From Methylomonas methanica MC09 (GTDB taxonomy: Bacteria > Pseudomonadota > Gammaproteobacteria > Methylococcales > Methylomonadaceae): a stretch of DNA of 64,000 nucleotides. Of this stretch, positions 32,327-61,829 are shown one piece after another; positions within the stretch are counted from its first letter, which is position 1, and each line of letters opens with the position of its first letter. The notes under the pieces are model-generated. The model did no database searches. It saw only the letters and a program-made list of their open reading frames with translations, and had not been told where the DNA came from. The position numbers and the translations under genes are program-made. Location: assembly GCF_000214665.1 (NCBI RefSeq), contig NC_015572.1, forward strand, positions 1,674,001 through 1,738,000, read 5' to 3'.

Positions 32327-33543
<1,217 letters not shown>

Positions 33544-48144: not shown

Positions 48145-48711
48145 TTAGGGGTATTCAGCCAGTATAGCCGGCAGGAAGAATTCGCTAACCAGTAAGGGCT
48201 GGTGGTGAATGGCATACAGCGTCCGCCGCCCCCAAACGGTTTGTTGCAGCCAAAAGCCGTTTTGTACGGCCGGCGACCAGCTATTGGTCGGCGCCGCGCT
48301 GAAATAGCGCTGCCGCAATTCCAGATCCGGATAGGCGAAAATCACTTCGCCCAAAGGCCGGGTACCCAGATGAGACAAATTGCGATGGGCGATGCGTATG
48401 GTGTGCTCCGGCAGCACGGTGCGGGCCAGTACCAAGGGTTTATCGCCCACATGCAACAGCACTTCCCGAATCAAATGGTAACGGTGGTGCGGCACCCGCA
48501 AAGTCTGGCATTCCTCGGCAAAAGCCGGTTTCCAATAATGAAACAGCAGCTTTACGGTCAACTGGTTGCCGTATACACTGCGCAGACGCTTGGTCAAGGA
48601 GCCGGTTTCGTTTAGCCAGGGGCGCAGAAGCGCGGGCGGTTGCGAATCCGTGCCGCGGATATGGGTTTTCCAAAGCGGCGGACGGCTAAATAAATAACTG
48701 TTAGTGGACAA
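48145..48711 (-). CDS. ubiC: Chorismate--pyruvate lyase UbiC
   Basis: UbiC releases pyruvate from chorismate to give 4-hydroxybenzoate, the first step of ubiquinone synthesis. The 188-residue product shows the expected pattern: RPWLNETGSLTKRLR near the N terminus (Arg and Gly of the active-site lid), REVLLHVGDKPLVLARTVLP in the middle and LGTRPLGEVIF with the conserved Glu. These contact the carboxylates of chorismate. Length is close to the E. coli enzyme. It is the last gene on the minus strand after the conflict island (148-base gap) and probably is a separate housekeeping unit. Confidence 0.9.
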   Translation of the reverse strand: MSTNSYLFSRPPLWKTHIRGTDSQPPALLRPWLNETGSLTKRLRSVYGNQLTVKLLFHYWKPAFAEECQTLRVPHHRYHLIREVLLHVGDKPLVLARTVLPEHTIRIAHRNLSHLGTRPLGEVIFAYPDLELRQRYFSAAPTNSWSPAVQNGFWLQQTVWGRRTLYAIHHQPLLVSEFFLPAILAEYP

Positions 48712-48859: not shown

Positions 48860-50422
48860 TCAGGCGTCGCTGAGCAGCGCTTTTAACAAAGTCTCCGCAG
48901 TGTGTTTCGGGCGCTTTTCACTGTCTATCCAGCTGATTTTCAAGCGGCTATCGGCCAGCAACCATTCCGCGCTAGTCTTGTCGGTTTGTTTATCAAACAG
49001 GATGACCAGTTTTTTCAGATGAGGTTTGTCCGCCAGCACGGACAGTTCGTGGCTACAGCCCTGCCGGTCTGTGGTATAGCCGCGCAAATCCATTAATACC
49101 CGGTCGGCTCTATCGACCAGCGTCTCAAGCACCAGTTTCCAGGTGCTGTCGAAACAAAAAAACTCGTTGACCCGAAAGCGGCCGTCCGGATCGTTGCTTA
49201 AGTCCAGATCGTGCAAAACCTGCTGTAAACGGTCGTTGCCGGTGATAAATCGATCTTGCAGGCGGCCGCTTAAAAATCCGAATAATTCATCCGGCTCCAG
49301 ATTGCGCAGGGCCAAATCCTTGCCGGCAATCAGCAGAGTGTTCCCGGAGTAGCGCCAGTTTTCAATGACCTGATCGAACAGCGTCTCGATACGGTTGTCG
49401 CCGCGAAACACCCGCAACAACAACAGGGCGGGCGGCAGATGGCGAGGTGTTAAGGCCGGCCGCATCAACAGTATAAACAGCGGAAACAGCAGGCCGGCCC
49501 ATAGCAGGTTATAGGCTTGCCAACCGATGGAATGGCTGATAATCAGGGCTTGAATCAGCAGCGTGATCAGCCATAAACCGGCCGCCAGATAAAGCGGTTC
49601 GGAAAAGGCTTTGCGTTGGTAGGCCTCGGCCAGACGACGGGCTACAAAACGTACCGGAAAAAACGCCACCAGCCAGGGCGCGATGCTGAACAGGCCGAAT
49701 ACCACGTAGGCATTCGTCAGCCGGGCCAAGTCGACGATCCAGCTATCGGCATTGTCCCCCAGCGTATGTTCCAGGGCGCTCAAGCCCAGTAAAGACGAAA
49801 CCGTCAATACAAAAAAAACCAGAATCAGGTAAGGGCCGGTGCTGCGTAGTCGGGACCCGGTCATGAAAAACACGATCAGCAACAGCGGCAATTGTTCGGA
49901 GAACAACCACAGCAATACCGGCAAAAAATGCTGATTTTCGTCGGAATTGAGCATGACGACCACACTGGACAGTGCGACGTATTGCAAGGAGATGAATAGT
50001 ATTTTTCCGCGCGGCCAGCGCTCCAGCAGGCCGATAGTGGGCACCACCGGCCAGGCATAAACCACGCTCAGGGTTAACAGCCGCCGCCAACTGAAACCGT
50101 CGACGACGTATGCCGATTGCGCGACAGCGGCAATAATGGCCGCTAACATCAGGCTGCTCAAGGTCAGGGCCAGGCGCAAGCGCCGTCTGGCGGCGCGGTT
50201 TTGCCGTGCCAGGTGGGCGTTGGTGGCTGCGACGGACTGGGTGGCCGGCAAGGGCTGCGCTTCGAATACATCGGTGGCCGCTTCGTCGTTGGGTGCGGTA
50301 CCCATTTGCATCAATTCCAATACTTTGCCGGCGTAGCGTCTGGCAACCAGCCAGCTGGCCACCCAGGCCAGTATTAACGATGCGATTAAGGCGAACAGGA
50401 TTTGACCGTCGAAGTTGTTCAC
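48860..50422 (-). CDS. Polytopic membrane protein with a Rossmann-like cytosolic tail (island gene 8)
   Basis: Not a family I can name. GTG 50422 (VNNFDGQILF) is preferred over TTG 50440 because GGGGG lies just upstream of it. Of 520 residues, about 1-330 hold eight or nine hydrophobic helices (LFALIASLILAWVASWLVA, YVFGLFSIAPWLVAFFPVRF, LWAGLLFPLFILLM). The last 170 residues are soluble: RVFRGDNRIETLFDQVIENW and RVLMDLRGYTTDRQGCSHEL, KKLVILFDKQTDKTSAEWLL, which alternates beta strands and helices like a TIR, Toll-like or receiver-like Rossmann fold. It closes the eight-gene run and may be a membrane effector or sensor. Confidence 0.7.
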   Translation of the reverse strand: MNNFDGQILFALIASLILAWVASWLVARRYAGKVLELMQMGTAPNDEAATDVFEAQPLPATQSVAATNAHLARQNRAARRRLRLALTLSSLMLAAIIAAVAQSAYVVDGFSWRRLLTLSVVYAWPVVPTIGLLERWPRGKILFISLQYVALSSVVVMLNSDENQHFLPVLLWLFSEQLPLLLIVFFMTGSRLRSTGPYLILVFFVLTVSSLLGLSALEHTLGDNADSWIVDLARLTNAYVVFGLFSIAPWLVAFFPVRFVARRLAEAYQRKAFSEPLYLAAGLWLITLLIQALIISHSIGWQAYNLLWAGLLFPLFILLMRPALTPRHLPPALLLLRVFRGDNRIETLFDQVIENWRYSGNTLLIAGKDLALRNLEPDELFGFLSGRLQDRFITGNDRLQQVLHDLDLSNDPDGRFRVNEFFCFDSTWKLVLETLVDRADRVLMDLRGYTTDRQGCSHELSVLADKPHLKKLVILFDKQTDKTSAEWLLADSRLKISWIDSEKRPKHTAETLLKALLSDA

Positions 50423-50499
50423 TCTGCCCCCATTTATCAATCCTTGTTAAGAGGCCGCGGCGCCTTAGCAATCAGCGCCGCAGCAGCTTGATGTGGTGT

Positions 50500-53322
50500 T
50501 TACAAATTTAACAAACGTTGCAATTTGCCGCGTTTTTTAAACCACTGGTCGAAAAATTTCAGATGCAAATTTGCTAAAGCCCAACCGACCGTGCCCAGCA
50601 CCGCCAGTCCCAGCCATTTGCGCGCGGTGTCCAAAGGTTGCAGATATTTACCGAAAGGCAGTAACACGCCGACCAACGTAATGATAATGGCCATGGTGAT
50701 GCTGGCGACGCCCAAGGTAATCGTGGTTTGATCCTGCCAGTTTTGCTTAATCCAAAGGACTAACAGCGCCAACACCACTAATCCGCAGGCCATAAAGGCA
50801 TATTTCAGGGTAGGGATAAGTACAAAGGCTTTGCCGGCCAACAACCGGGCAGCGTTGAGTTGCGTGGCCAAATCCTTTGCCTTGGGATCGCCGGCTTCCG
50901 GATCGGTCGCCAGTATCGGTGCGATATCGCTGAAAGGCCAGTCTTGCCCGGGCGCGTGGATATCGAAATCGGCCCAATGGCCGTTGAGTTGTAAGTCCTG
51001 GTGTTGCCGGTCCAACTGGGACAGTTGATGTTTGGCCATGGCGTAACCGCTGGCCATCAGGGCATACGCTTCCACTTCGGTAAAGGTATCCAGATCGGTT
51101 CGGACTTGGGCCAGACGGCGTTGCTGGCCGCGGTCTATGCCGTAATCCGTGCATTGCGGCCGTTTCGGCTTGGGGCTGGGGTTGTCGCACTGTATCCAGT
51201 CCAGCGGGTCGGAATGTAAATCCTGTTTTAAGTGTATGAAGAACAAACCCTGCAAAGCGTTGCTCTTGGCTTTGGCTTCCAGGTCTTGAAACTGCGCCTC
51301 CCGCACTCGGTCCTGCAAAATGCTGTCGGAACGGAAAAACACGCTCAGGGCGCTCTTCTTGGGAGAGGTCTGGTCGTCCATTTGTCCGGAGGCATCGCTG
51401 CATAAAATCAAGTCGCAGCTTTCATCCAGTAAGCCCGCCACGCCTTGATTGTCGTGCACGCCGCCGTCCACCAAGCGGATGGTGTGATTCAGGTACAAAT
51501 CGTCCAATTCCAACGGGTCGAACAAGGCCGGTACCCCGGCGGACGAGGCTACCGCGTAGCCCAATGGGTAGTGCTTGAGGGATTCGGTGGGTGCCTGCCA
51601 GTAATACAGCCGCCGATAGCGCTGGTTCATGTCGATATCCTGCCCGGTCAGCCCCGGCGGCTCGCCCATAAAGCTGGCGGTAAAGTGCCAGTTATGCCCG
51701 GAATTCAGCGACGTGGTGTTCAACAGCAAGGCCGGTACCTTGGCCCGCCGCCGCCAGTTGGCTTGTTGCGGATGGAAGCTTTCGTCGCAAAAGGTGGCAT
51801 TGCTCAGCGGGTCGGCCGTCAGCGGATGGACCCGCAAATCGTGCATGGGCCGCATGTTCGGCACGCCGTCGGCAGCACCTTGATAGGCTTCCACTTGTTG
51901 GTAGAAGTAGGATTCGTACAGCTCGCCCATGCGATTGCTGCGGCCGTAGCCGGATTGAAACAGCATTTTTAAGTTGTCGGGCAGACTGGCCAGCGCGCGA
52001 ACCCTTAAGTTTTCGGAGACGCCTGTGAAAAACTGTTCGATTACGGTGCTCACCAACTGGATGTAATCATCGCGGCGGATATCGGCGTCGGTTTTTTCCA
52101 TCAACAGTTTGCGTAAGGCCAGATAATAATGCGCGCCGACGATGCTGCCGCCGGATACCGTCGACAGTACTTCCACGCTACGCAGGGCGTCCACTTCCGC
52201 CAAACGCGCCAGTACCCCCAGATGATACAGGGAGGCGCGAAAGCCGCCGCCGGACAGCGCCAAACCGACTTTGCCGCGAAAACACTCGAAGCAAGCCGAG
52301 GCATCGTCGCCCAACAAGCGGCTCAGAGTTTGCCAGGGCGGCGCCCAATCTGTGGGGGATTGCCTATCCGGGGGCGGAACGAAGCCGTGCATGCGGGCAA
52401 TCGCCACCAGTTGCCGGGTAGTGGTTTGGCGTTCCCATTCGAAATGTTCGGCATTTTTGGCTTGATCCAGCCATTTGCCTGCCTCATCCCACTGGCCCAG
52501 ACCGAAAGCGGCTTCCGCCATGGTCACCAATAACCACCATTCCGTCAGGATGCCTGGGTCCTGAACGGTGGCGTAATTCGGCAAATCGGCCAAAAGTTGC
52601 GTGCGCAACTCGCCGGCTTGCTTGCGCAAGGTCTGACATTCGGTGTCCGGGATCTGTTCGCGGGCCGCGTTGACGTGGGCCCGCTGCGCCAATTTATCCA
52701 GAATAAACGCTGCGTTGATGCCGCAGTAACCCATGTCCTGTTCCGGATTTAGCGTCCAGCCGCGTTGGTAAAAATACTGCGCGGCTTGCAAGTCTTCCAG
52801 GCGGCCGGAACGGTCGAATTTGCGCTTGTAAATTGCACCGGCTTGGCCCAGGGTTTCCGGATCTTTGCAATCCGGGCTGCGCAAGCCTATACCTTCCAAA
52901 ATCGTTAACGCCCGATCATGGCGTTGGTCCGGCGGCAGTTCGCCGTCTTTATAGGTATTTAAAGCCAGTTGCTGGGTCGCTTTTATCGCTAAGTCGTCGC
53001 TGCAACCTTGTTCGAGCAACTTGGTTAACAATTGCCGCGCCAGCGCATGTTCGTCCAGGTTTTTTAAACGCTTGGTTAACCGCAGGGTTTCGGTTTCGTC
53101 CAAAAGCGCTCCAGCCAAACAGGCTTCGCCTTGTTGCTTGAGTAATTGACGGGCCTTGCCTAACAATTGCCGCGAAACCCGCATTTCGCCAAGTTGATAC
53201 AATTGCTTAGATAGTTTGAGGCATTGATCCACTGCCGCGTCGGTGGACTTGCCGCTGGGGTGGGGGCGATCGATGAGTTCCTGGGCTTGCGTTATTAATT
53301 TCTTATAGTTTTGTTTGGCCAT
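50500..53322 (-). CDS. TPR-S plus patatin-like phospholipase with C-terminal membrane helices (island gene 7)
   Basis: This 940-residue protein joins three parts. Residues 1-310 are a helical repeat module of the TPR-S (DUF4071) type: ETLGQAGAIYKRKF at 157-170 and NAAFILDKLAQ. Residues 350-720 are a patatin/cPLA2-like lipase: SGGGFRAS at 357-364 (oxyanion hole), STVSGGS with candidate nucleophile Ser390, and VDGGVHDNQG with the catalytic Asp. A nucleophile elbow of the SGG type differs from the CapV protein of gene 5. The last 130 residues carry three or four membrane helices (TLKYAFMACGLVVLALLVLW, MAIIITLVGVLLPF). Product probably attacks membrane lipids. Its repeat module matches that of gene 6. 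Confidence 0.85.
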   Translation of the reverse strand: MAKQNYKKLITQAQELIDRPHPSGKSTDAAVDQCLKLSKQLYQLGEMRVSRQLLGKARQLLKQQGEACLAGALLDETETLRLTKRLKNLDEHALARQLLTKLLEQGCSDDLAIKATQQLALNTYKDGELPPDQRHDRALTILEGIGLRSPDCKDPETLGQAGAIYKRKFDRSGRLEDLQAAQYFYQRGWTLNPEQDMGYCGINAAFILDKLAQRAHVNAAREQIPDTECQTLRKQAGELRTQLLADLPNYATVQDPGILTEWWLLVTMAEAAFGLGQWDEAGKWLDQAKNAEHFEWERQTTTRQLVAIARMHGFVPPPDRQSPTDWAPPWQTLSRLLGDDASACFECFRGKVGLALSGGGFRASLYHLGVLARLAEVDALRSVEVLSTVSGGSIVGAHYYLALRKLLMEKTDADIRRDDYIQLVSTVIEQFFTGVSENLRVRALASLPDNLKMLFQSGYGRSNRMGELYESYFYQQVEAYQGAADGVPNMRPMHDLRVHPLTADPLSNATFCDESFHPQQANWRRRAKVPALLLNTTSLNSGHNWHFTASFMGEPPGLTGQDIDMNQRYRRLYYWQAPTESLKHYPLGYAVASSAGVPALFDPLELDDLYLNHTIRLVDGGVHDNQGVAGLLDESCDLILCSDASGQMDDQTSPKKSALSVFFRSDSILQDRVREAQFQDLEAKAKSNALQGLFFIHLKQDLHSDPLDWIQCDNPSPKPKRPQCTDYGIDRGQQRRLAQVRTDLDTFTEVEAYALMASGYAMAKHQLSQLDRQHQDLQLNGHWADFDIHAPGQDWPFSDIAPILATDPEAGDPKAKDLATQLNAARLLAGKAFVLIPTLKYAFMACGLVVLALLVLWIKQNWQDQTTITLGVASITMAIIITLVGVLLPFGKYLQPLDTARKWLGLAVLGTVGWALANLHLKFFDQWFKKRGKLQRLLNL

Positions 53323-53391
53323 GGCAGGTGCTCCGCTGAGGTGTGAATGAGGGCTTTGCTAATCGTTCAGCCCGGTAAAGCGTTGTTTTGG

Positions 53392-54693
53392 TTATAGTCC
53401 CTCCAGAGGCGAGTTTTGCAGTAATTGCTTGAGTGCATCGATTTGCTGATTAGTGGATTCGCACATCCAGTATTCCGAATACGGTTTGGCTTGTTGCAGG
53501 CATTTTTCGGCTTCGGCATCGTTTCCCAGACCCACCCAGGCTTCGGCTTTGGTGGCCAAGACCCAGTAGCGGTCGTCGTCGTCTTCCACATCCTTGATGG
53601 TCTGCAACTCGGCGAATTTGGCGTCGGCGATTTTTAAAATATCCTGGCGGGTGCGGCGGGCCAGCATGAAATCGGTAATCGCTTCCGCCTTGTCTTGGGC
53701 CAGGGAGGCGCGCACATTCAATAAAAAGGCCCAATTGATGCCGTTGTAGTGATCGTTTTGCAGGCGGTAGCCTTTTTCGTAGGCACCGATAGCGGTGTCC
53801 AGATCGGTTTGGTCGTGGGTGATATCGAACAGCCGCTTATGAATGGCGCCCCAAATACCCAGCGTTTCGGCGTTATTCGAAGCCATGGGTTGCAGGGTTT
53901 GCAGAATCTGTTTGGCTTCCAGCAGTGCCGCGTGCGGGTCGGGGTACTTGGCTTTGTAGGTGACCAACGCCAATTGCTGTACCCATTGCGATTGGCGGGG
54001 CGAAATGTTGTGCAAGGTGGTCAGCAGGCCTTTGGCCATTAAAAAGTCGCTGTTCTTTTTGGCTTCGGTGACCTGTTGCAACAACACCGACACCGCCGGG
54101 TTGGCGGGTTCCGCTGCAACGGCTGCTTCCGGCGCGAGTGCCGATACACTATCGCTGGCCTTGGCGGAGGTGACGATGTGTTCTTCGGGCGGCTCGAGGT
54201 TGTTTAAATAGGTATACACCGGGCTATCGTTTCGTTCGGCATTGACCACATCGATAATAGCTTGTTTGAGTACCTTGCGAAACCGGTCCACTTCTTCGAT
54301 ATCCAACACCTTGCCGTCGTGCCGGTAACGGCGGATCAGGATATGGTTGACGTCGAACGGGTTGGCGAATTGTTCCTCGGCAATGATGATGGTGGTGCGC
54401 GGCCGTAGCGCATGCCGGACCCCCAGTTCGTATATGGCATTGCAGTTGGAGGTGGATAAATCCGCCAGCACCACGTCGGCGCGCAGCAATTGTTCGAACA
54501 TCGGCACGTCTATGGTGCCGGCATGCGGGATTTCGTCTGCCCGGATGCATTTCAGTCCGGCGTCTTCCACCGCCGTCTTGATGATGTATTTATAGCTCTT
54601 ATCCAGATCCAGATCCCGGCTGGTGTGGTAGTCGGTTTTGACGCCGAAGCCCATCACCACGAAACAGGTTTTTTGTTGTTGTTCTTCTGCCAT
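53392..54693 (-). CDS. Deoxyribosyltransferase/TIR-like domain plus TPR-S protein (island gene 6)
   Basis: A 433-residue cytosolic protein. Residues 8-150 look like a Rossmannoid nucleoside 2-deoxyribosyltransferase/TIR-like domain: FVVMGFGVKTDY, VPMFEQLLRADVVLADLSTS with NCNAIYELGVRHAL at 84-97. The conserved YELG glutamate is the candidate catalytic residue. A linker rich in Ala and Pro follows, and residues 205-425 form the TPR-S (DUF4071) module with ETLGIWGAIHKRLF (276-289). In published conflict systems such proteins act as adaptors or as nucleotide-degrading effectors. The gene lies 26 bases after the CapV-like patatin. Confidence 0.82.
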   Translation of the reverse strand: MAEEQQQKTCFVVMGFGVKTDYHTSRDLDLDKSYKYIIKTAVEDAGLKCIRADEIPHAGTIDVPMFEQLLRADVVLADLSTSNCNAIYELGVRHALRPRTTIIIAEEQFANPFDVNHILIRRYRHDGKVLDIEEVDRFRKVLKQAIIDVVNAERNDSPVYTYLNNLEPPEEHIVTSAKASDSVSALAPEAAVAAEPANPAVSVLLQQVTEAKKNSDFLMAKGLLTTLHNISPRQSQWVQQLALVTYKAKYPDPHAALLEAKQILQTLQPMASNNAETLGIWGAIHKRLFDITHDQTDLDTAIGAYEKGYRLQNDHYNGINWAFLLNVRASLAQDKAEAITDFMLARRTRQDILKIADAKFAELQTIKDVEDDDDRYWVLATKAEAWVGLGNDAEAEKCLQQAKPYSEYWMCESTNQQIDALKQLLQNSPLEGL

Positions 54694-54719
54694 GTCGGTT
54701 TCCCCAGAATGAATGATTA

Positions 54720-55883
54720 TTAGACAAAGCCTTTAAAGTGCTCGGTTTTGACGTGGGCTTTGGCGTACTCGATGCCGACCCGGCGGATGTCGCCCATGTG
54801 TGCCACCGAATCCAGCGTCTGCACGTTTGCCGGATCGACGTCGCGCAAACCCAAGGCGTCCAGCCCTTCGCGGGTGACCGCCGGGTCGTAGCGCAGATAG
54901 CTGAATAATTTCGGCCCGTTGAAATTGGCGCGGTTCGGTGACTGTAGCATATCGCCGATCTCCCTATCGATCGGCCCGCCGTGCCGGCAGGCACCCAAAG
55001 TGCGGCAGGCCATATCCCAACCCGCCGATGCCGCGTTCATCAGGGCCGACGGGATGTTTTGCGCAAAATGCAAAATATTCAGTTCATCCACGCCGGTATT
55101 TTTGGCCAGGGTTTTGGCCGCGCCGCCAGTGCCGATCGACACGATCAGCAGCCGGTCTTCGCCGGTCGGCCAGTTGATGTTATAAGGCGCGGCGGTGGCC
55201 ATTTGAAACGCCAGATAAGCTGGATTGTTATAAGTGGTGACGCCGCCGTCGACGAAAATAAAGTTGTATTCCTCCGGCGTGCCCTCGGCGAAGCTCACCA
55301 CTTCCGGCGGGAAATAGGTCGGCGCGGCGGTGCTGGCCCGCACCAATTGCCACAGCGGCAAAAACAGATTGCAATCGCGGCGGCTCAGGTCGTTGTATTT
55401 GGCCAGTGGATTATTGCAAACCGGCCACGGCGAATCCGTACTGTGGTTGCGCATCACCATCATCAACAGTGTGCGCAACTTGGAACTGCCCAGCGTGGCG
55501 TTGCTTTCCACCAGTTGTTCATCGAAGGCTTTTCTCAGCAATTTCGCCAACGGTTCGTCGTTGTAGCTATAACGCAGCCGCTTCAACAGCGAGGCTTTGT
55601 CGAACATCTGTTGGCCGCTGTCCAGATAAAACTGTCTGATTTTGTCCAGGGACATACCGCTGGCGATGCAGGCGGCGATAATTGCCCCGGTGCTGGTACC
55701 GCAGACGAAATCGAAATAATCCGCCAGCACGAACTTCTCATCCCTGCCCAGCGCTACCCGCAAGTCGTATTCCAGCTTGGCCAGAATCTCCACGCTCATC
55801 AGCCCTAAAATCCCGCCGCCGTCGCAGGCGAGAATTTTTTTGGGGCCGGGGGCTTGCATGCGGTCTAGTACGGTTTGGGTCAT
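54720..55883 (-). CDS. CapV-like patatin phospholipase (island gene 5)
   Basis: A 387-residue cytosolic patatin. DGGGILGL at 21-28 is the oxyanion-hole motif (in place of GGGxRG), GTSTG at 62-66 holds nucleophile Ser64, and FVDGGVTTYNNPAYLAF supplies the catalytic Asp and following NNP motif. These match patatins such as CapV of CBASS, which degrade phospholipids when a nucleotide second messenger binds. No cyclase gene (CD-NTase) is in the cluster, so activation must come from another product, possibly the TIR/SIR2 or TPR-S proteins. The family, length and active site indicate a functional enzyme. Confidence 0.9.
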   Translation of the reverse strand: MTQTVLDRMQAPGPKKILACDGGGILGLMSVEILAKLEYDLRVALGRDEKFVLADYFDFVCGTSTGAIIAACIASGMSLDKIRQFYLDSGQQMFDKASLLKRLRYSYNDEPLAKLLRKAFDEQLVESNATLGSSKLRTLLMMVMRNHSTDSPWPVCNNPLAKYNDLSRRDCNLFLPLWQLVRASTAAPTYFPPEVVSFAEGTPEEYNFIFVDGGVTTYNNPAYLAFQMATAAPYNINWPTGEDRLLIVSIGTGGAAKTLAKNTGVDELNILHFAQNIPSALMNAASAGWDMACRTLGACRHGGPIDREIGDMLQSPNRANFNGPKLFSYLRYDPAVTREGLDALGLRDVDPANVQTLDSVAHMGDIRRVGIEYAKAHVKTEHFKGFV

Positions 55884-55940
55884 AACGTGAGTCCTGTTAT
55901 TGGCTTAGAGTTTTGTGCGATAAAAATTCAGCTGGCGCAG

Positions 55941-55966
55941 GGAGTACAAACCCAGGTTTGTACTCC
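55941..55966. repeat. Perfect 12-bp palindrome between island genes 4 and 5
   Basis: GGAGTACAAACC (55941-55952) and GGTTTGTACTCC (55955-55966) flank CA. It has no T-run on the side of transcription. It looks like a repetitive extragenic palindrome and may fine-tune the operon. Confidence 0.5.
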
Positions 55967-56005
55967 GGAATACCGACTTGCCGGTTTGCTTTCGGCTTTG
56001 CGGCG

Positions 56006-57019
56006 TCATGGTTGCGTTGCCGGTTTGGGCGGCTGCTGGCGTTGGCGTTCCTGGCGTTGCGCATCATCTTTGCCGGCCAGCGAGCCGCGCAATTTCAGCA
56101 GGTTTTTTAGGGCGCCGTACCAAAACGGCGCGCCCAGACTGAGTAGGAACACCGACAGGATGATACCGATGGGGTTGACCTCGCACCAATGTTCACGCCA
56201 GTTTTGACCGCTATTGATCACATCGATAACACCCAATTCTTGCAAGGTGTTCAGTTCGGTTTTTACCGAGTCGACATTTAACACCGGTGCCTTGCCAGCG
56301 GTCGTTTGAGCTTGATCGATGGCGAAGGCCTTGCTTATCAACGTGTCGCGCAATTGGTCGTCCATGGATAAACGGTTAATCACGTCCAGGCTGTCCAGCT
56401 GTATCGCCGCCACCACCACAACCGAACACAGCACACTGACCAGCCGGCTGCTGGCGGTAAACCGGTCGGACACCCGGTCCATGGTCTGGTCGAACCAGCC
56501 GTTGACTTTGGCCACCAGCCGGCTGTTGGCTTCCGTCAGCATGGCGATGCTGTGGCGGACATTGGCGGCCAGTTCCGGATTGCTCAATTCCAGCTGCAGG
56601 GCATAGTTACGAACTTTATCGACGGTGTCTTTGGGGTTATCGATGCCGTTCTGCTGCAACAACGCCATCAACTGCTGTTTGGCCTCGTCGGATAGCGGGT
56701 TGCTGTGATTTTTCGGAATCTCGCCCGAGGCCAGATCCATCAACAGTTTGACGAATTCCTCCCGGTGTATGGTATCTCCCAGGCGCTGGGCGACGCTGCT
56801 GATCATCGGGTGGGTGAGTACGGAGCAGGTAATTTGTTCGGCAATCTCGCGCTGCAGGTTCGGGTCTATCTGCTGCAGCAAATCGCATAAACCACGGGCC
56901 AGGTTTTTGCCGCGCAGGTTCACCAGCCCGGACACGAATTGCGTCAACACCGTGACCGCCATGCTGGCGATCAGCATGATGACCGTCATGCCTAATAGAA
57001 TATCGAGCGTTTTCAGCAT
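56006..57019 (-). CDS. Membrane protein of unknown function (island gene 4)
   Basis: 337 residues with no recognised family. An N-terminal membrane helix (LLGMTVIMLIASMAVTVLT, about 8-28), a helical cytosolic middle (QLMALLQQNGIDNPKDTVDK) and two further hydrophobic segments (LVSVLCSVVVVAAIQLDSL near 195; PIGIILSVFLLSLGAPFWYG near 280) suggest three membrane spans. The C terminus is polar (AQRQERQRQQPPKPATQP). Spacing from the WD40 NTPase gene is 115 bases and from the patatin gene 122 bases, all on one strand. A pore-forming or membrane-anchoring partner of the island is plausible, but unproven. Confidence 0.6.
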   Translation of the reverse strand: MLKTLDILLGMTVIMLIASMAVTVLTQFVSGLVNLRGKNLARGLCDLLQQIDPNLQREIAEQITCSVLTHPMISSVAQRLGDTIHREEFVKLLMDLASGEIPKNHSNPLSDEAKQQLMALLQQNGIDNPKDTVDKVRNYALQLELSNPELAANVRHSIAMLTEANSRLVAKVNGWFDQTMDRVSDRFTASSRLVSVLCSVVVVAAIQLDSLDVINRLSMDDQLRDTLISKAFAIDQAQTTAGKAPVLNVDSVKTELNTLQELGVIDVINSGQNWREHWCEVNPIGIILSVFLLSLGAPFWYGALKNLLKLRGSLAGKDDAQRQERQRQQPPKPATQP

Positions 57020-57134
57020 AGGGAGCTCCCGATGAACGTTTGGATATGTGTCGACGAGGCGTACCGGCCGGCGCTAGCCGAACCCATACGCCGGGATATT
57101 TGTGAATAATGGCGAAAGGCGGATTCAGGCGATT

Positions 57135-59780
57135 TCATTCTATATGTGCCTGAGATGTGTCTTTGGCTTGTTCATCCGCTTGATCGGGCGGAACCGGCAG
57201 GCCTGGGCATTGTTCGATGTAGTCTATGTCCGGCGATACCCATTCCCGCCATTCCTTATGGCTCATGTTGCGGTCGAGTTTTTTGCAGAGTTCGTCAGCC
57301 CAGGCTTCAAAGACAGGCCAGATGCGTATCGTGTTATCCGCGCTGCCGGAGACAATATGTTTACCGTTAGGGCTAAACGCCACACTGCTTACCCTTTCCG
57401 AATGACCGGTTAGCGGCTGGCCGATGGGCCGACCATTGGCCGCATCCCATAACCGTAGGATGTTATTACTGCCGCCGGAGACGATACGTTGGCCGTCCGG
57501 GCTGAAAGCTACGCTGTTTATACTATCCGAAAGGCCGGTCAGCGGGTGGCCCATGGGCTGATTGTTGTCCGCATTCCAAAGTCGTAAGGTGTTATCGCTA
57601 CTAGCGGAAACGATGCGTTTGCCGTCCGGGCTGAAGGCCACGCTATTTACGCTACCCGAATGGCCGGTTAGCGGCTCGCCGATGGGTTGGCGGCTGTCTA
57701 CATTCCAAAGGCGAAGGGTGTTGTCGCTACTGCCGGAAACGATGCGTTTGCCGTCAGGGCTGAAGGCCACGCAGTTTACGCTATCCGAATGGCCGGTTAG
57801 CGCTTGGCCGATGGATTGGCCGTTGTCGGCATTCCATAGGCGTAGCGTATGGTCTTTGCTGCCGGAGACGATGCGTTTGCCGTCCGGACTGAACGCCACG
57901 CTGTATACATCAACCGAATGGCCTGTAAGCGGCTCGCCGATAGGTCGGCCGGTGTCGGTATTCCACAAGCGTAGGGTGCGGTCTTTGCTGCCGGAGACGA
58001 ATCGTCTGCCATCCGGACTAAAGGCCACGCTGTATATCTCGTCCGAATGGCCGGTTAGCGGCTGGCCGACGGGCTCGCCCGTGTCGGCGTTCCACAGCCT
58101 TAACATGTTATCCAATCCGCCGGAAAGGATGAGCTTTCCGTCCGGGCTATAGGCGACGCTCACCGCCGGAGATTTTAATTCCCTTGAATAGGCCGATTGC
58201 TTGAATTTCAGATATTCGGTTTGCAGAACTTCATCCAGCAATGCTTCGCCGATATTTGCTGATCGCGCCAGTCTATGTCCCGCCAATACTTTAAACAGAC
58301 CGGTTAGCGTACTGCCTTGACGCAAGCCGGACGTAATCGAGCTGCCTTCAATCGCCAAACGGGTGGCGGTTGCTTCCATCCAGGCCTGTTTGGCTTTGCT
58401 TTCGGCTTGCCACATGTAGGCTGCGAATATCGTGACTAGCAGCAGCAGCCCGGCAAAACCCACCAACAAACGTAGACGCTTTTTTTGTTGTATCTGCGTT
58501 TCCCGGCGTTGCGCGCTTTCGCGGCGGCGTACTAAGGCCACTTGCGCCAGCCGATCGTGCACCAGTTCGATACGGTCGCCTTCTTCCAGACTTTCCCGGC
58601 GCAGCAGGCGTTTGTCGACTAGCGTATTCAGTTGCGCGGCGGTGGCCCGTTTTTCGGTTTCCATCGAACGTACCGGATAGGCCAGCCGCACGCCGTCCGA
58701 TGTAATCAGATGTTGTTCGACGAAATCGCGTACCGATGCGGGCAGGTCGGCGAAGGCCTGATCGTAAAAGCGTTCTACGATCAGGCCGCCTTGTTGGGTC
58801 AAATTGTCGGTTTTTAACTGTTTGGTTTGACTGCGCAAACGGTCTTCATTCAAACCCGCGCACATCAGGCCCAAAAGAGCGGGTTCGATTTGTGTGACGC
58901 CGCGGCGTTTTTGCTGGCCGGCCGTTTGATTGGCCGACAGGTATTCCACGATGTTTTCGGCGTCCTGCGGTGTAACCAATTCGCCGCCGGTTTTCTGCAC
59001 CGCAGCGATGGCTTGCGGGGCGGTCATGGGCAGCAAGCGGAAGCGGTTCGGACTCAAGCGCGGAATCAGTTCGCTCCATTCTTCCAGATCGGGTAAGTAG
59101 TCTTCCCGCAGCGATAGCAGGAACCGGTAGGGCTGGCTGTCCGGATTCAATTGATCGAACAGCTCGTCGTCTTCGTTCAGGCGTTCGGCCAGGGCTTTGG
59201 GTATGCGGTTCTCCAGCAAATCGCCCAGCTGATAGAAACAGTGGGTTTGGCGGTTGGGGTTTTGCCCGCCCAGCGTGAAAATTTCCTCGAACTGGTCCAG
59301 CACGAACACCGGTTGCCAACGTTTGCCGGTTTCGTCGACCAGTTCGATGTCGTTGCGATGCAAGTCCGCCCACAGATCGTCGGTGAGAATAATGGGTTCG
59401 GCGTCTTCGTCTTCCTGGTTTTGCCGGTAGCGGTAATGCAGCGGCGGCGAAGCGGCGGCGGTATGGGATTTATGGATTTCCTCGCTGAAACGCTTGGCGA
59501 GTTGGGCGCTTAAATCGGCCGCATTTGGATCGTGTAACAAACGCATGTAGATCGGTAGCAAACGTTCGCCGCGTAACTGCGGAAATAGTCCGGCCTGCAG
59601 TAACGACGATTTACCCAGTCCGGATTTGCCGAACAGTACCGTGACCGGCGCGGAGAGTACGCAACGGAACAGGGCGGCTTTTTCGTCGTCGCGGCCGTTA
59701 AAAAACTGTTCCGCGTATTCCGGAAAGGCATCCAGCCAGGGCCAGGGGTGTTCGGCATCGATTTTAAAGCTGTCAGTCAT
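57135..59780 (-). CDS. Membrane-anchored STAND NTPase with seven WD40 repeats (island gene 3)
   Basis: An 881-residue signalling ATPase. Walker A GKSGLGKSS is at 51-59 and Walker B FVLDQFEEIF at 159-168, in the STAND class of conflict NTPases. A helical region ends at one transmembrane segment (about 436-457, LVGFAGLLLLVTIFAAYMW). A linker leads to seven WD40 repeats of 43 residues (about 540-840; FSPDGKRIVSGSSDNTLRLW is typical) forming one propeller, and a short tail (DYIEQCPGLPVPP). The propeller would sense a ligand and release ATPase-driven signalling. Start overlaps the end of gene 2 by eight bases, so translation is coupled. Confidence 0.92.
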   Translation of the reverse strand: MTDSFKIDAEHPWPWLDAFPEYAEQFFNGRDDEKAALFRCVLSAPVTVLFGKSGLGKSSLLQAGLFPQLRGERLLPIYMRLLHDPNAADLSAQLAKRFSEEIHKSHTAAASPPLHYRYRQNQEDEDAEPIILTDDLWADLHRNDIELVDETGKRWQPVFVLDQFEEIFTLGGQNPNRQTHCFYQLGDLLENRIPKALAERLNEDDELFDQLNPDSQPYRFLLSLREDYLPDLEEWSELIPRLSPNRFRLLPMTAPQAIAAVQKTGGELVTPQDAENIVEYLSANQTAGQQKRRGVTQIEPALLGLMCAGLNEDRLRSQTKQLKTDNLTQQGGLIVERFYDQAFADLPASVRDFVEQHLITSDGVRLAYPVRSMETEKRATAAQLNTLVDKRLLRRESLEEGDRIELVHDRLAQVALVRRRESAQRRETQIQQKKRLRLLVGFAGLLLLVTIFAAYMWQAESKAKQAWMEATATRLAIEGSSITSGLRQGSTLTGLFKVLAGHRLARSANIGEALLDEVLQTEYLKFKQSAYSRELKSPAVSVAYSPDGKLILSGGLDNMLRLWNADTGEPVGQPLTGHSDEIYSVAFSPDGRRFVSGSKDRTLRLWNTDTGRPIGEPLTGHSVDVYSVAFSPDGKRIVSGSKDHTLRLWNADNGQSIGQALTGHSDSVNCVAFSPDGKRIVSGSSDNTLRLWNVDSRQPIGEPLTGHSGSVNSVAFSPDGKRIVSASSDNTLRLWNADNNQPMGHPLTGLSDSINSVAFSPDGQRIVSGGSNNILRLWDAANGRPIGQPLTGHSERVSSVAFSPNGKHIVSGSADNTIRIWPVFEAWADELCKKLDRNMSHKEWREWVSPDIDYIEQCPGLPVPPDQADEQAKDTSQAHIE
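57300..58180 (-). repeat. Tandem WD40-encoding DNA repeats, about 129 bp each
   Basis: Seven units of 129 bases encode the propeller. Several are nearly identical at DNA level (for example GTTTGCCGTC followed by GGGCTGAAGGCCACGC), showing recent duplication or gene conversion. They are coding, not CRISPR or non-coding repeats. Confidence 0.85.
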
Positions 59781-61218
59781 TGGCCGCCTCCCGGAACCGC
59801 CGGCAGCGCTCTTGCAACGCGTCCTGCTGATCCGTGTCGAAAAAGCCGCCGGGGGCGTGGAACAGGTGTTTGTCGAAAAACACCCGGGTTTCCCTGTCGT
59901 CTATGCGCGCGTATCGGGTTTTGCTGGCGGCTTCGTTATCTATGCCGACCGGCAGTAAAAACGCATCCTGAATGCGGCGGGCTCGCCGCACCGCCATGTT
60001 CCATTCTTCCCAAAATACGCCCTCGCGTCGGCTGTTGGCTTCCGCGGATAAAAGCGGCATGAAAAAGTCGCATGTTTCCACGGCGTCTTCGATACGATCG
60101 GCCCAATCGTCTCCGCCGATCAGCTTTTTCTTATCCAGCCAGACATCGCTAAAACCCAGGTTTACTAGCGCGTCGGCAATGCGCCGGGCGGCCTCGGCGT
60201 TTTCGCTGGCATAGCTGACGAATACAGTGGGGCCGCCGCTTGCTCTGGCGTTCGGTTTGGGTTGCGTTGTCGGCGTGGCGGAGGGAAAGCGTAGCGCCAG
60301 TTTTTCGATAAATGCCTCGGTCGGATCGTCGAATCCCAGGGTGTTGGGGCTGTATTGGCTCAAAAACGCTTTCAGACCGGAATCGTCGGCAGACGGCAAC
60401 AAAAATTCCGAGGTGAATTTTTCCTGGCTGTAAAAGCGGTTGTCGTTGAACAATCGCAGCATGGCCCGGCCCAGCCAATCCGGGAAATTGCAGCCTATCA
60501 GCAATTTGTCGCGGCGGCGCAGTTCCGACAGCAGCGCAGCGAAGCGGCGGGCGGCGTCCGATTGCAATCGGTACAGGTGTTCCAGCGTGTCTTCCTCGTG
60601 GATGGCAAAGCCGATGGCGGCGTTGCCGTACGCGCCCAAAGGCTGAAAAATGCCGCGCTCGCCCCGGCGCAGCAGGGATAAGTCGGCCAGCGATTCGGAG
60701 GCGTCGCGCGGCGAAAAACTGTTGACCCGCACGTTGGCGGCATCGTCATCATTTGCCATGGCGCGTTTCAGCAAATCGTCCGGCGTCAAACTGACGAACA
60801 GGCTGAAGGCACCGATGCCGGCCAGTTGCCGCAACGCTGCGGCGGGTTGTACCTGCGGGCTACGCTGTGCGATCAAACGCGATACTTCCCGCCTGACCCG
60901 TTGCTCGATATTCAGACCGCCTTTTTGTGCCAATACCTGATTCACCGCTTTGTGCAGCGCCCAAGTATGCTCGAGCAATGCCGGGTCAACCGCCAGTTGA
61001 AAGGATTTGAGCAGATCGGCGGCGATCAGCCGGTAAAAGGGTAGGGTTTGCGGAACGCTGTCAGCGTCGGTAACCTCTACCAATAGTGCGTCGGGACCGA
61101 TGACCGGGATCACATTGCCGTCTTTCAGCGCCTGGATTAACAAATCCCAGTCTGCGCCGGTAAAAGCGCCGCTGGCGGGTTCCGTTGGAACCGTGCTCGG
61201 TTCCGTCAAAGCTACCAT
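59773..61218 (-). CDS. SIR2-like/TIR fusion protein (island gene 2)
   Basis: A 481-residue cytosolic protein. The start is ATG 61218 (MVALTEP), with AGGAC six bases upstream, and it overlaps the preceding gene by seven bases; the longer frame reads through arginine-rich nonsense. Residues 20-310 are SIR2-like (GNVIPVIGPDAL, SLFVSLTPDDLLKRAM, DKLLIGCNFPDWLGRAML). The usual catalytic Asn of TNxD and the His of HG are absent (TPDD and PLGA), so this domain probably binds rather than hydrolyses NAD. Residues 330-428 are a TIR domain (TVFVSYASENAEAARRIADA) with FWEEW at 402-406 containing the candidate NADase Glu. A linker rich in Pro connects them. Confidence 0.85.
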   Translation of the reverse strand: MVALTEPSTVPTEPASGAFTGADWDLLIQALKDGNVIPVIGPDALLVEVTDADSVPQTLPFYRLIAADLLKSFQLAVDPALLEHTWALHKAVNQVLAQKGGLNIEQRVRREVSRLIAQRSPQVQPAAALRQLAGIGAFSLFVSLTPDDLLKRAMANDDDAANVRVNSFSPRDASESLADLSLLRRGERGIFQPLGAYGNAAIGFAIHEEDTLEHLYRLQSDAARRFAALLSELRRRDKLLIGCNFPDWLGRAMLRLFNDNRFYSQEKFTSEFLLPSADDSGLKAFLSQYSPNTLGFDDPTEAFIEKLALRFPSATPTTQPKPNARASGGPTVFVSYASENAEAARRIADALVNLGFSDVWLDKKKLIGGDDWADRIEDAVETCDFFMPLLSAEANSRREGVFWEEWNMAVRRARRIQDAFLLPVGIDNEAASKTRYARIDDRETRVFFDKHLFHAPGGFFDTDQQDALQERCRRFREAAND

Positions 61219-61829
61219 AAGGTCCTGGTATCCAGCCAAATCACGCGGCCGTGCTGTTTTTGCACTTCCGCTACCATGTGCGCGGTGCCGCCTGGGCCGT
61301 CTCCGCCGCCGCCATCCCACAGGCAGATAAACACCAGTTTTTCCGGGCCGTACGCCAAGCCGCTGGCCAATAACCACAAGTTGCAGCGTTCGTAGGCGTT
61401 CATGTTCGGGGGCAGAGGGCCGAGTTCGGCAGGAGCGGCCAGCGGTGGGCCGGACAATTGCCGCGCGATGTTTTGGTAACGCGGCAGCCAGTCGGCGTTA
61501 CCGGGAGTGACCGAATTTTCGATGAATTCCGCTTCTGCGAAAGGTTGCAGCAACTGCAATTTTACGTTGCGTTGCAGGCAGGCTTCGGCAAACAGGATGT
61601 CGCCGCCGTTTGCGCCCTGGGTGATAGCCAAGTCGCCCTGTCCGGCGTGAAATTCGTCCAGTTTCTCGGCTATGCATTGTACGGCGAGTCCGGCTTTTTC
61701 CGGCGGAAAGCGGGGTGCGGTGCGCCGAGGCGCGTCTATCATATGGCCGCTGAATAGCAGCACGCGCTCCGGTTGCCAAGCTTGATTTGTTCGATCCGGT
61801 AGATGAAATTTAGCCGGTTGGATACTCAT
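61212..61829 (-). CDS. SLOG-like Rossmannoid protein (island gene 1)
   Basis: A 205-residue cytosolic protein beginning at ATG 61829 after AGGAG. FSGHMID at 26-32, QGANGGDILFAEACL at 71-85 and WDGGGGDGPGGTAHM at 171-185 match a nucleotide-binding SLOG-like (LOG/DprA/TRPM-related) Rossmann fold seen as a separate protein or fused domain in TIR and TPR-S conflict systems. The fold could bind or process NAD-derived or other nucleotide signals. No membrane or signal sequence. It overlaps the SIR2-like/TIR gene by seven bases and is the first gene of the run. Confidence 0.7.
   Translation of the reverse strand: MSIQPAKFHLPDRTNQAWQPERVLLFSGHMIDAPRRTAPRFPPEKAGLAVQCIAEKLDEFHAGQGDLAITQGANGGDILFAEACLQRNVKLQLLQPFAEAEFIENSVTPGNADWLPRYQNIARQLSGPPLAAPAELGPLPPNMNAYERCNLWLLASGLAYGPEKLVFICLWDGGGGDGPGGTAHMVAEVQKQHGRVIWLDTRTLW

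Follow-up and report, generated by a model that had tools for sequence, protein, structure and literature searches.

Systems built around the TPR-S domain have reportedly been predicted by Burroughs and Aravind in 2020 (J Bacteriol), with TPR-S as the predicted reader of signals derived from nicotinamide adenine dinucleotide (NAD). Eight minus-strand open reading frames (ORFs; g1 to g8) at 48860-61829 of a stretch of 64,000 nucleotides (the window) from the 5.05-Mb single-contig genome of Methylomonas methanica MC09 resemble these systems in the TPR-S domains of g6 and g7, both above the cut-off, and in neighbours of the NAD- or nucleotide-processing kind, namely a TIR_2 domain in g2, a TIR-like domain in g6 and a SLOG fold in g1. 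In contrast to these systems, TPR-S is here joined with a STAND receptor carrying a predicted transmembrane (TM) helix, a SIR2-like/TIR protein with an apparently dead SIR2 part and two patatins. With confidence and doubt in about equal measure, the cluster is read here as a TPR-S-type abortive-infection (cell-suicide) system that is composite and centred on the membrane, senses at the envelope and is gated by an NAD-derived signal; domains, conserved residues, module associations and predicted topology form the basis of this reading.

Other described systems share single aspects. In Avs and bacterial NLR-type STAND defences, as in g3, a STAND NTPase is followed by a C-terminal sensor that varies; here, however, the effector is on a separate gene and a TM helix is placed between NTPase and sensor, and Avs was rejected with no Avs model among the PADLOC matches of g3 (one family listed). 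Equally, g5 resembles the phospholipase effector of CBASS with a CapV patatin, though its score lies below the NCBIfam cut-off; CBASS was rejected with no CD-NTase among the Pfam, PADLOC and NCBIfam matches listed for the eight proteins (for g3 in Pfam, the best 25 of 55). Thoeris consists of ThsA, a SIR2-SLOG protein, and ThsB, a TIR protein, and has in common with this locus the presence of TIR, SIR2-like and SLOG folds together and, elsewhere, a ThsB-like TIR near relatives of g6; by contrast, in this cluster the SIR2-like domain is fused to TIR and lacks its motifs, SLOG is a separate gene and the effectors are lipases. With no SIR2-SLOG fusion, the SIR2 motifs lost and no ThsB model among the PADLOC matches of g2, Thoeris was ruled out; a ThcB4 match of g2 in NCBIfam (0.0084) and a ThsB match of its relative in L158 (7.5e-4) are both weak and below cut-off. 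The nSTAND1 NTPase has been named (eLife 2021, e70394; PMC8195603) and predicted conflict systems dependent on nucleoside triphosphates (NTP) with TIR, DRHyd and SLOG have been described (eLife 2020, e52696; PMC7159879), and these four modules recur here, while the accessible portions of the two papers, and equally of PMC9503650 and PMC10907252, do not describe this gene set. A literature search covering titles and the beginnings of abstracts, with most subscription papers outside it, gave no description of the gene combination.

The sequence-only reading of the window had proposed eight leftward genes between Ehr-like genes and ubiC with overlaps of 7 and 8 bases at the front and gaps of 26-122 bases thereafter, and the spacing recomputed from g1 to g8 (-7, -8, 115, 122, 26, 69 and 59 bases) is the same. 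Its SLOG, SIR2-like, TIR, nSTAND1-WD40, two patatin and two TPR-S assignments are backed by profiles or fold, and its two multi-pass membrane proteins, g4 and g8, by hydropathy. New relative to that reading are the TM helix of g3, the two TM segments near the C-terminus of g7, the enzyme-like N-terminal domain of g6 and the loss of the SIR2 motifs. The start of g2 was taken at 61218 (ATG) rather than at the GTG that the ORF list gives further upstream. The features are the following:

61212..61829, minus strand: g1, SLOG-superfamily protein, 205 aa
59773..61218, minus strand: g2, SIR2-like and TIR protein, 481 aa (TIR_2 E 1e-18)
60274..61149 (limits approximate), minus strand: SIR2-like domain of g2, GAGxS, TNxD and HG motifs lost
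59776..60225, minus strand: TIR domain of g2, Glu405 retained in 18 of 18 rows
57135..59780, minus strand: g3, nSTAND1 NTPase, TM helix and WD40 propeller, 881 aa (nSTAND1 E 4.6e-29)
58413..58469, minus strand: predicted TM helix of g3, residues 438-456, NTPase side rich in Lys and Arg
57312..58199, minus strand: WD40 repeats of g3 (Pfam), predicted to be periplasmic
56006..57019, minus strand: g4, membrane protein with 3 hydrophobic segments, 337 aa
54720..55883, minus strand: g5, patatin-like phospholipase resembling CBASS CapV, 387 aa (Patatin E 4.8e-25)
53392..54693, minus strand: g6, DRHyd/TIR-like domain and TPR-S, 433 aa
50500..53322, minus strand: g7, TPR-S, patatin and C-terminal anchor of two TM segments, 940 aa
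48860..50440, minus strand: g8, multi-pass membrane protein with about 9 hydrophobic segments and a C-terminal alpha/beta domain, 526 aa
48863..49435, minus strand: C-terminal alpha/beta domain of g8, perhaps DRHyd-like

Recurrence of the gene set in two operon types

The genes are not a product of chance, since the reading frames of g1 and g5-g8 are open and, in comparison with M. lenta, under purifying selection (82-91% identical; ratio of non-synonymous to synonymous substitution, dN/dS, 0.07-0.16 for the five genes compared). Twelve domain profiles derived from g1 to g8 were used to annotate relatives; the short loci L094-L114, L128, L129 and L131-L157, mostly duplicates or TIR-only, were left unused. 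A SIR2/TIR gene is followed by a STAND gene in all 21 assessable places read (18 of 18 in the first set, plus L176, L217 and L272), with hosts such as Rubrivivax (L035), Paraburkholderia caribensis (L176) and another family of the class; SIR2 and TIR occupy two overlapping frames in L217, the STAND of L272, a distant copy in the genome G007, is split in two around an opposite-strand ORF, and L223, ending at a contig edge, was excluded from the count. A search with g7 among 161 genomes of the family gave 19 loci with a match over the TPR-S region (that of G456 incomplete at its other end), and further genes of the set are present in the stretch read at 13 of these, the window and G007 included. 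Such genes occur at none of 13 patatin-only control loci, nine of them read from the 19 on the family list and four from the class search, and at none of 19 ubiC loci of the genus. Because of the constant SIR2/TIR-STAND pairing and this difference from the controls, the gene set is not random.

Two operon types with common ends and a swapped middle can be distinguished. The first has the order SLOG-SIR2/TIR-STAND-TPR-S/patatin (L158, L159 and L160), the second the order SLOG-DRHyd/TPR-S-TPR-S/patatin-g8-muramidase (L253, L254, L255 and L116, with g8 interrupted in L116). The cluster in the window is not one fixed eight-gene system: both smaller types are merged in it, with g4 and g5 added and the muramidase absent. 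Parts of both types are equally combined in L161, together with a CHAT/lipase-like/TPR-S protein of 1827 aa, the order in L256 is SLOG-g4-TPR-S/patatin-DRHyd/TPR-S, and DRHyd is fused to SLOG in L034 and L162. In L218 a single nSTAND1-TPR-S-patatin-TM protein stands beside a SIR2_2 gene with intact motifs (L218:1209-6133), a compact two-gene form. A search for the same ordered set elsewhere, suggested earlier, had a mixed outcome: homologues co-occur outside close relatives, so that a restriction to close relatives, which had been named as the outcome speaking against the idea, was not observed, but no other genome with all eight genes in order was found.

The N-acetylmuramidase (PF11860) that follows g8 in the second type was identified by scanning in L253 and L161 and by homology in L254, L255 and L116, and those of L253, L255 and L161 lack a hydrophobic N-terminal signal. 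The muramidase-like genes directly after g8 relatives lie at L253:12866-13903, L255:5672-6706 and L161:1794-2840, and a signal-less muramidase next to g8 resembles an endolysin of the cell's own, possibly with a partner of the holin type. Proteins of roughly 1830 aa with lipase-like, CHAT protease and TPR-S parts (L161:10736-16216, L040:779-6307) have been observed in L040-L042 and L087 near a caspase-like gene and g5-g6, in L040-L042 with g8 as well.

Relatives of g6 are distributed over 69 loci in several phyla. A g5 relative lies within 19 of the 69, three of them in Methylomonas and others in metagenome-assembled genomes of Hymenobacter and Segetibacter, and g8-g5-g6 stand together in L040-L043. 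The ThsB-like TIR family near g6 relatives comprises 22 ORFs (19 of the 66 loci clustered), one of which was scanned and matched ThsB_TIR at 2e-15 and PADLOC ThsB1 at 5e-41. Elsewhere in the class, three of five g8 relatives have a neighbour similar to genes of the set. The membrane protein gene g4 adjoins the TPR-S/patatin gene in L019, L021, L022 and L256; its relatives in other genomes of the class, a strong but stop-broken one in G039 and seven weak ones, have no neighbour from the set in the stretch read. Seven g6 relatives (L063, L064, L066, L067, L071, L072 and L090) stand beside another recurrent gene set, with ORFs for QueC, an 8-oxoguanine glycosylase-like protein, TIR plus TGT and a PfkB-like protein (Pfam names from L063 and L064 only), possibly another defence operon.

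Predicted receptor, enzymes and effectors

The STAND protein g3 has a Walker A (GKSGLGKS) and a Walker B motif (VFVLDQFEE). At the threshold used, 15 of the 18 STAND genes that pair with a SIR2/TIR gene encode a TM helix after the STAND domain; of the other three, L130 is cut by the contig end, and L161 and L164 have a hydrophobic stretch below the threshold. Topology was judged from hydropathy and charge; in 14 of the 15 TM-bearing proteins Lys and Arg are commoner on the side of the NTPase, with one tie. On the far side of the helix Pfam identifies WD40 in the window and in L169 and LytR_C, a domain of cell-envelope proteins, in L160, while the far-side domain of the remaining STAND partners was judged by eye. 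Because of the helix, the WD40 side (LytR_C in one relative) is probably periplasmic and thus outside the cytoplasm. The genome contains a second, diverged pair of SIR2/TIR and STAND-TM-WD40 genes, distant from the window (G000:C1:2876.7k-2881.8k; L169:5712-10822).

In g2, SIR2_2 matches (E up to 1) were obtained for all 14 gene-2 proteins scanned, the best at 3.4e-10 and that of the window protein at just 0.035, under the curated cut-off. Upon alignment with a SIR2_2 protein with intact motifs (P0002), the Asn and His are replaced and GAGxS is altered in 14 of 14, which makes the role as NAD enzyme previously assigned to the SIR2 part unlikely. The TIR domain is the likely NADase of g2, because the SIR2-like domain is without the usual motifs in all 14 aligned proteins. 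The Rossmannoid SLOG fold of g1 derives from a structure model, not from Pfam, with matches to YpsA, DprA, LOG and TRPM; the model resembles the SLOG region of a TRPM2 structure solved with ADP-ribose, and g1 is a probable reader of a nucleotide ligand. A search of solved structures by sequence alone returned no credible match for g1 or g6 and none for g8.

Among the effector candidates, g5 has intact GTSTG and DGG motifs and matches the PADLOC phospholipase effector model (8.8e-45) and, below cut-off, NCBIfam CBASS_lipase (1.4e-33; 116.5 of 200 bits). The TPR-S domain (PF20308), said to occur in animal ASK kinases as well, is found in g6 at 6.2e-24 (85.0 bits, cut-off 27.6), next to a match to Pfam MAP3K_TRAF_bd (1.5e-8); residues 30-132 of g6 match the PADLOC TIR effector model (4.9e-9), and Glu89 of this nucleotide-hydrolase-like N-terminal domain is retained in 77 of 77 distinct rows. 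For g7, TPR-S (7.2e-18; 65.5 bits, cut-off 27.6) and Patatin (5.1e-14) are accompanied by TM segments at 840-858 and 870-888, with Ser390 and Asp619 retained in 13 of 13 rows. Equally, D451, C462 and E465 of g8 are retained in 14 of 14 rows; the comparison of its C-terminal domain with the N-terminal domain of g6 is weak (hhalign probability 10-21%), and in a separate comparison DNPH1 was among tied matches of this domain. The structure model of g8 is of poor quality, and its Foldseek matches were discarded. The conserved patatin, TIR and DRHyd-like residues are putatively catalytic.

Proposed mechanism and competing explanations

In the proposed abortive-infection system g3 would span the inner membrane, with its WD40 reading a signal at or beyond the membrane, outside the cytoplasm, and NTP-driven assembly of the inner NTPase would activate the partner g2, whose TIR, on a catalytically dead SIR2-like scaffold, would convert NAD+ to a messenger. 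In the second operon type g2 and g3 are replaced by the DRHyd-like domain of g6, which may be a second, alternative messenger maker. The messenger would be read by the SLOG protein g1 and the two TPR-S domains. This would release the patatin g5 via g6, the membrane-anchored patatin g7 via the TPR-S that it carries itself, and g8 and g4 as membrane proteins, and the cell would be killed by phospholipid breakdown and membrane opening. We infer the signal, the messenger, the order of activation, the death of the cell, the phage trigger and immunity itself from these parts, with viruses as the probable target. The earlier logic of a sensor, an NAD layer and lipase plus membrane effectors fits the recurrent operons, with the SIR2 part unlikely to be an NADase and without one fixed system; equally, the WD40 NTPase as signal sensor stands as a STAND-WD40 protein, its WD40 side now probably periplasmic. 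More tentatively, and rather doubtful as a whole, g3 might represent a transmembrane NLR-like receptor with STAND inside, one helix and an interchangeable outside sensor (WD40 or LytR_C), regularly paired with a TIR carried by a dead SIR2 scaffold and swapping with a DRHyd messenger maker on a SLOG/TPR-S-patatin chassis. In relatives this chassis would end in a pair that resembles holin and endolysin and is triggered by a messenger made from NAD. If the proposed system holds, bacterial innate immunity would here sense at the envelope and not in the cytoplasm, one effector chassis would take different messenger makers, lipases and, in relatives, peptidoglycan hydrolases would be tied to one signal, and a route to assay the predicted role of TPR-S as NAD-messenger sensor would be available.

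Several observations weigh against the abortive-infection system as composed here. M. lenta retains g1 and g5-g8, with g2 only as scraps and g3 and g4 absent, so that the proposed receptor is dispensable there, and the preservation of the second half without the STAND/TIR half argues against an obligate eight-gene machine. No other gene of the set is found at six of the 19 TPR-S/patatin loci of the family, no g5 in the stretch examined at 50 of the 69 g6-relative loci, and the g6 relatives in Algoriphagus lie in a common, conserved neighbourhood that has no gene of the set. The parts are rare, with g8 in 6 of 321 genomes of the class (E up to 0.001) and g2 in 2 of 321 (E up to 1e-20); the LytR_C match in L160 is scarcely above the cut-off (22.3 versus 22.2 bits); promoter- and terminator-like sites are not above shuffled controls; and a Pfam scan of 14 further proteins of the window revealed no defence gene. 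It is conceivable, if on balance unlikely, that two or three complete small systems (g1-g2-g3, g5-g6-g8 and g7-g4) are stacked at a variable ubiC site and work separately: only g7-g4 stand beside ubiC in G015 (L021), and g5-g8 in G026 (L018), all eight are at ubiC in the window while parts are located away from ubiC and in different order in G007, and gaps of 115 and 122 bases separate g4 from both neighbours. Such independence is, however, difficult to reconcile with the repeated joint occurrence of these parts in further genera and at further sites, with the presence of SLOG and TPR-S/patatin in both operon types, and with the fusion of STAND to TPR-S/patatin in L218.

A switch for cell death in envelope stress or development, not antiviral, appears distinctly improbable. 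A sensor that spans the membrane and has one domain predicted to lie outside, effectors directed at the membrane and, in relatives, at the cell wall, and the lack of a Pfam defence gene beside the cluster would suit it, whereas the PADLOC effector matches of g5 and g6, the ThsB matches of g6 neighbours, the patchy presence (any g6 match in 9 of 61 genomes, the own included) and the plasmid copies of g6 relatives speak for defence. Slightly more improbable still, and concerning topology only, so that it is compatible with the other readings, is a g3 with STAND and WD40 both cytoplasmic, the helix of which would injure the membrane upon assembly. To our knowledge, the STAND receptors in defences described so far lie in the cytoplasm, and the topology derives from hydropathy; against this stand the charge bias in 14 of 15 proteins and the LytR_C across the helix in a relative.

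Mobility and genomic surroundings

Relatives of g6 were found in 67 plasmid records, 34 of them called conjugative. Six neighbourhoods of g1 and g6 relatives on plasmids were inspected, and a stretch of about 7 kb on a Rhizobium leguminosarum plasmid contains SLOG, TPR-S, SLATT, muramidase, patatin and g6. Plasmid searches with the other genes gave no g8, one g2 and 19 g7 relatives, none of the latter covering 80%, and a search of viral contigs gave two relatives for g6 and none for g2 or g8. Plasmid-borne g6 relatives with TIR proteins were noted in L179, L181 and L182, with DUF4231 (SLATT) in L179 and L182. In the class, g7 matches (E up to 1e-40) are present in 7 of 321 genomes, four of them patatin-only.

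Genes of the set adjoin ubiC at 4 of 23 loci examined (the window, L018, L021 and L204); a 'defence hotspot' at ubiC was rejected, with none of these genes, the only ones assessed, at the other 19, and the site is merely recurrent. Synonymous divergence of island and ubiC disagrees in opposite directions for two relatives (L016, L021 and L203 versus the window): in the comparison with M. lenta, 0.42-0.46 of the synonymous sites differ in g5 and g6 and 0.77 in ubiC, while against G015 g7 (0.60) exceeds ubiC (0.38), a hint only, from few genes, of exchange of island genes between species. The guanine-plus-cytosine content of the island genes is 0.55-0.59 versus 0.54 for the window. No RNA gene was found by an Rfam scan of 46-64 kb or by a tRNA scan of the whole window. 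The cluster is flanked by the following genes:

48145-48711: ubiC (Pfam Chor_lyase)
from 62185 onward: hydrogenase/complex-I-like genes (Pfam Oxidored_q6, Complex1_49kDa)

Of the window proteins scanned, only a transposase with an integrase core (rve), encoded at 32653-33540, belongs to a mobile element.

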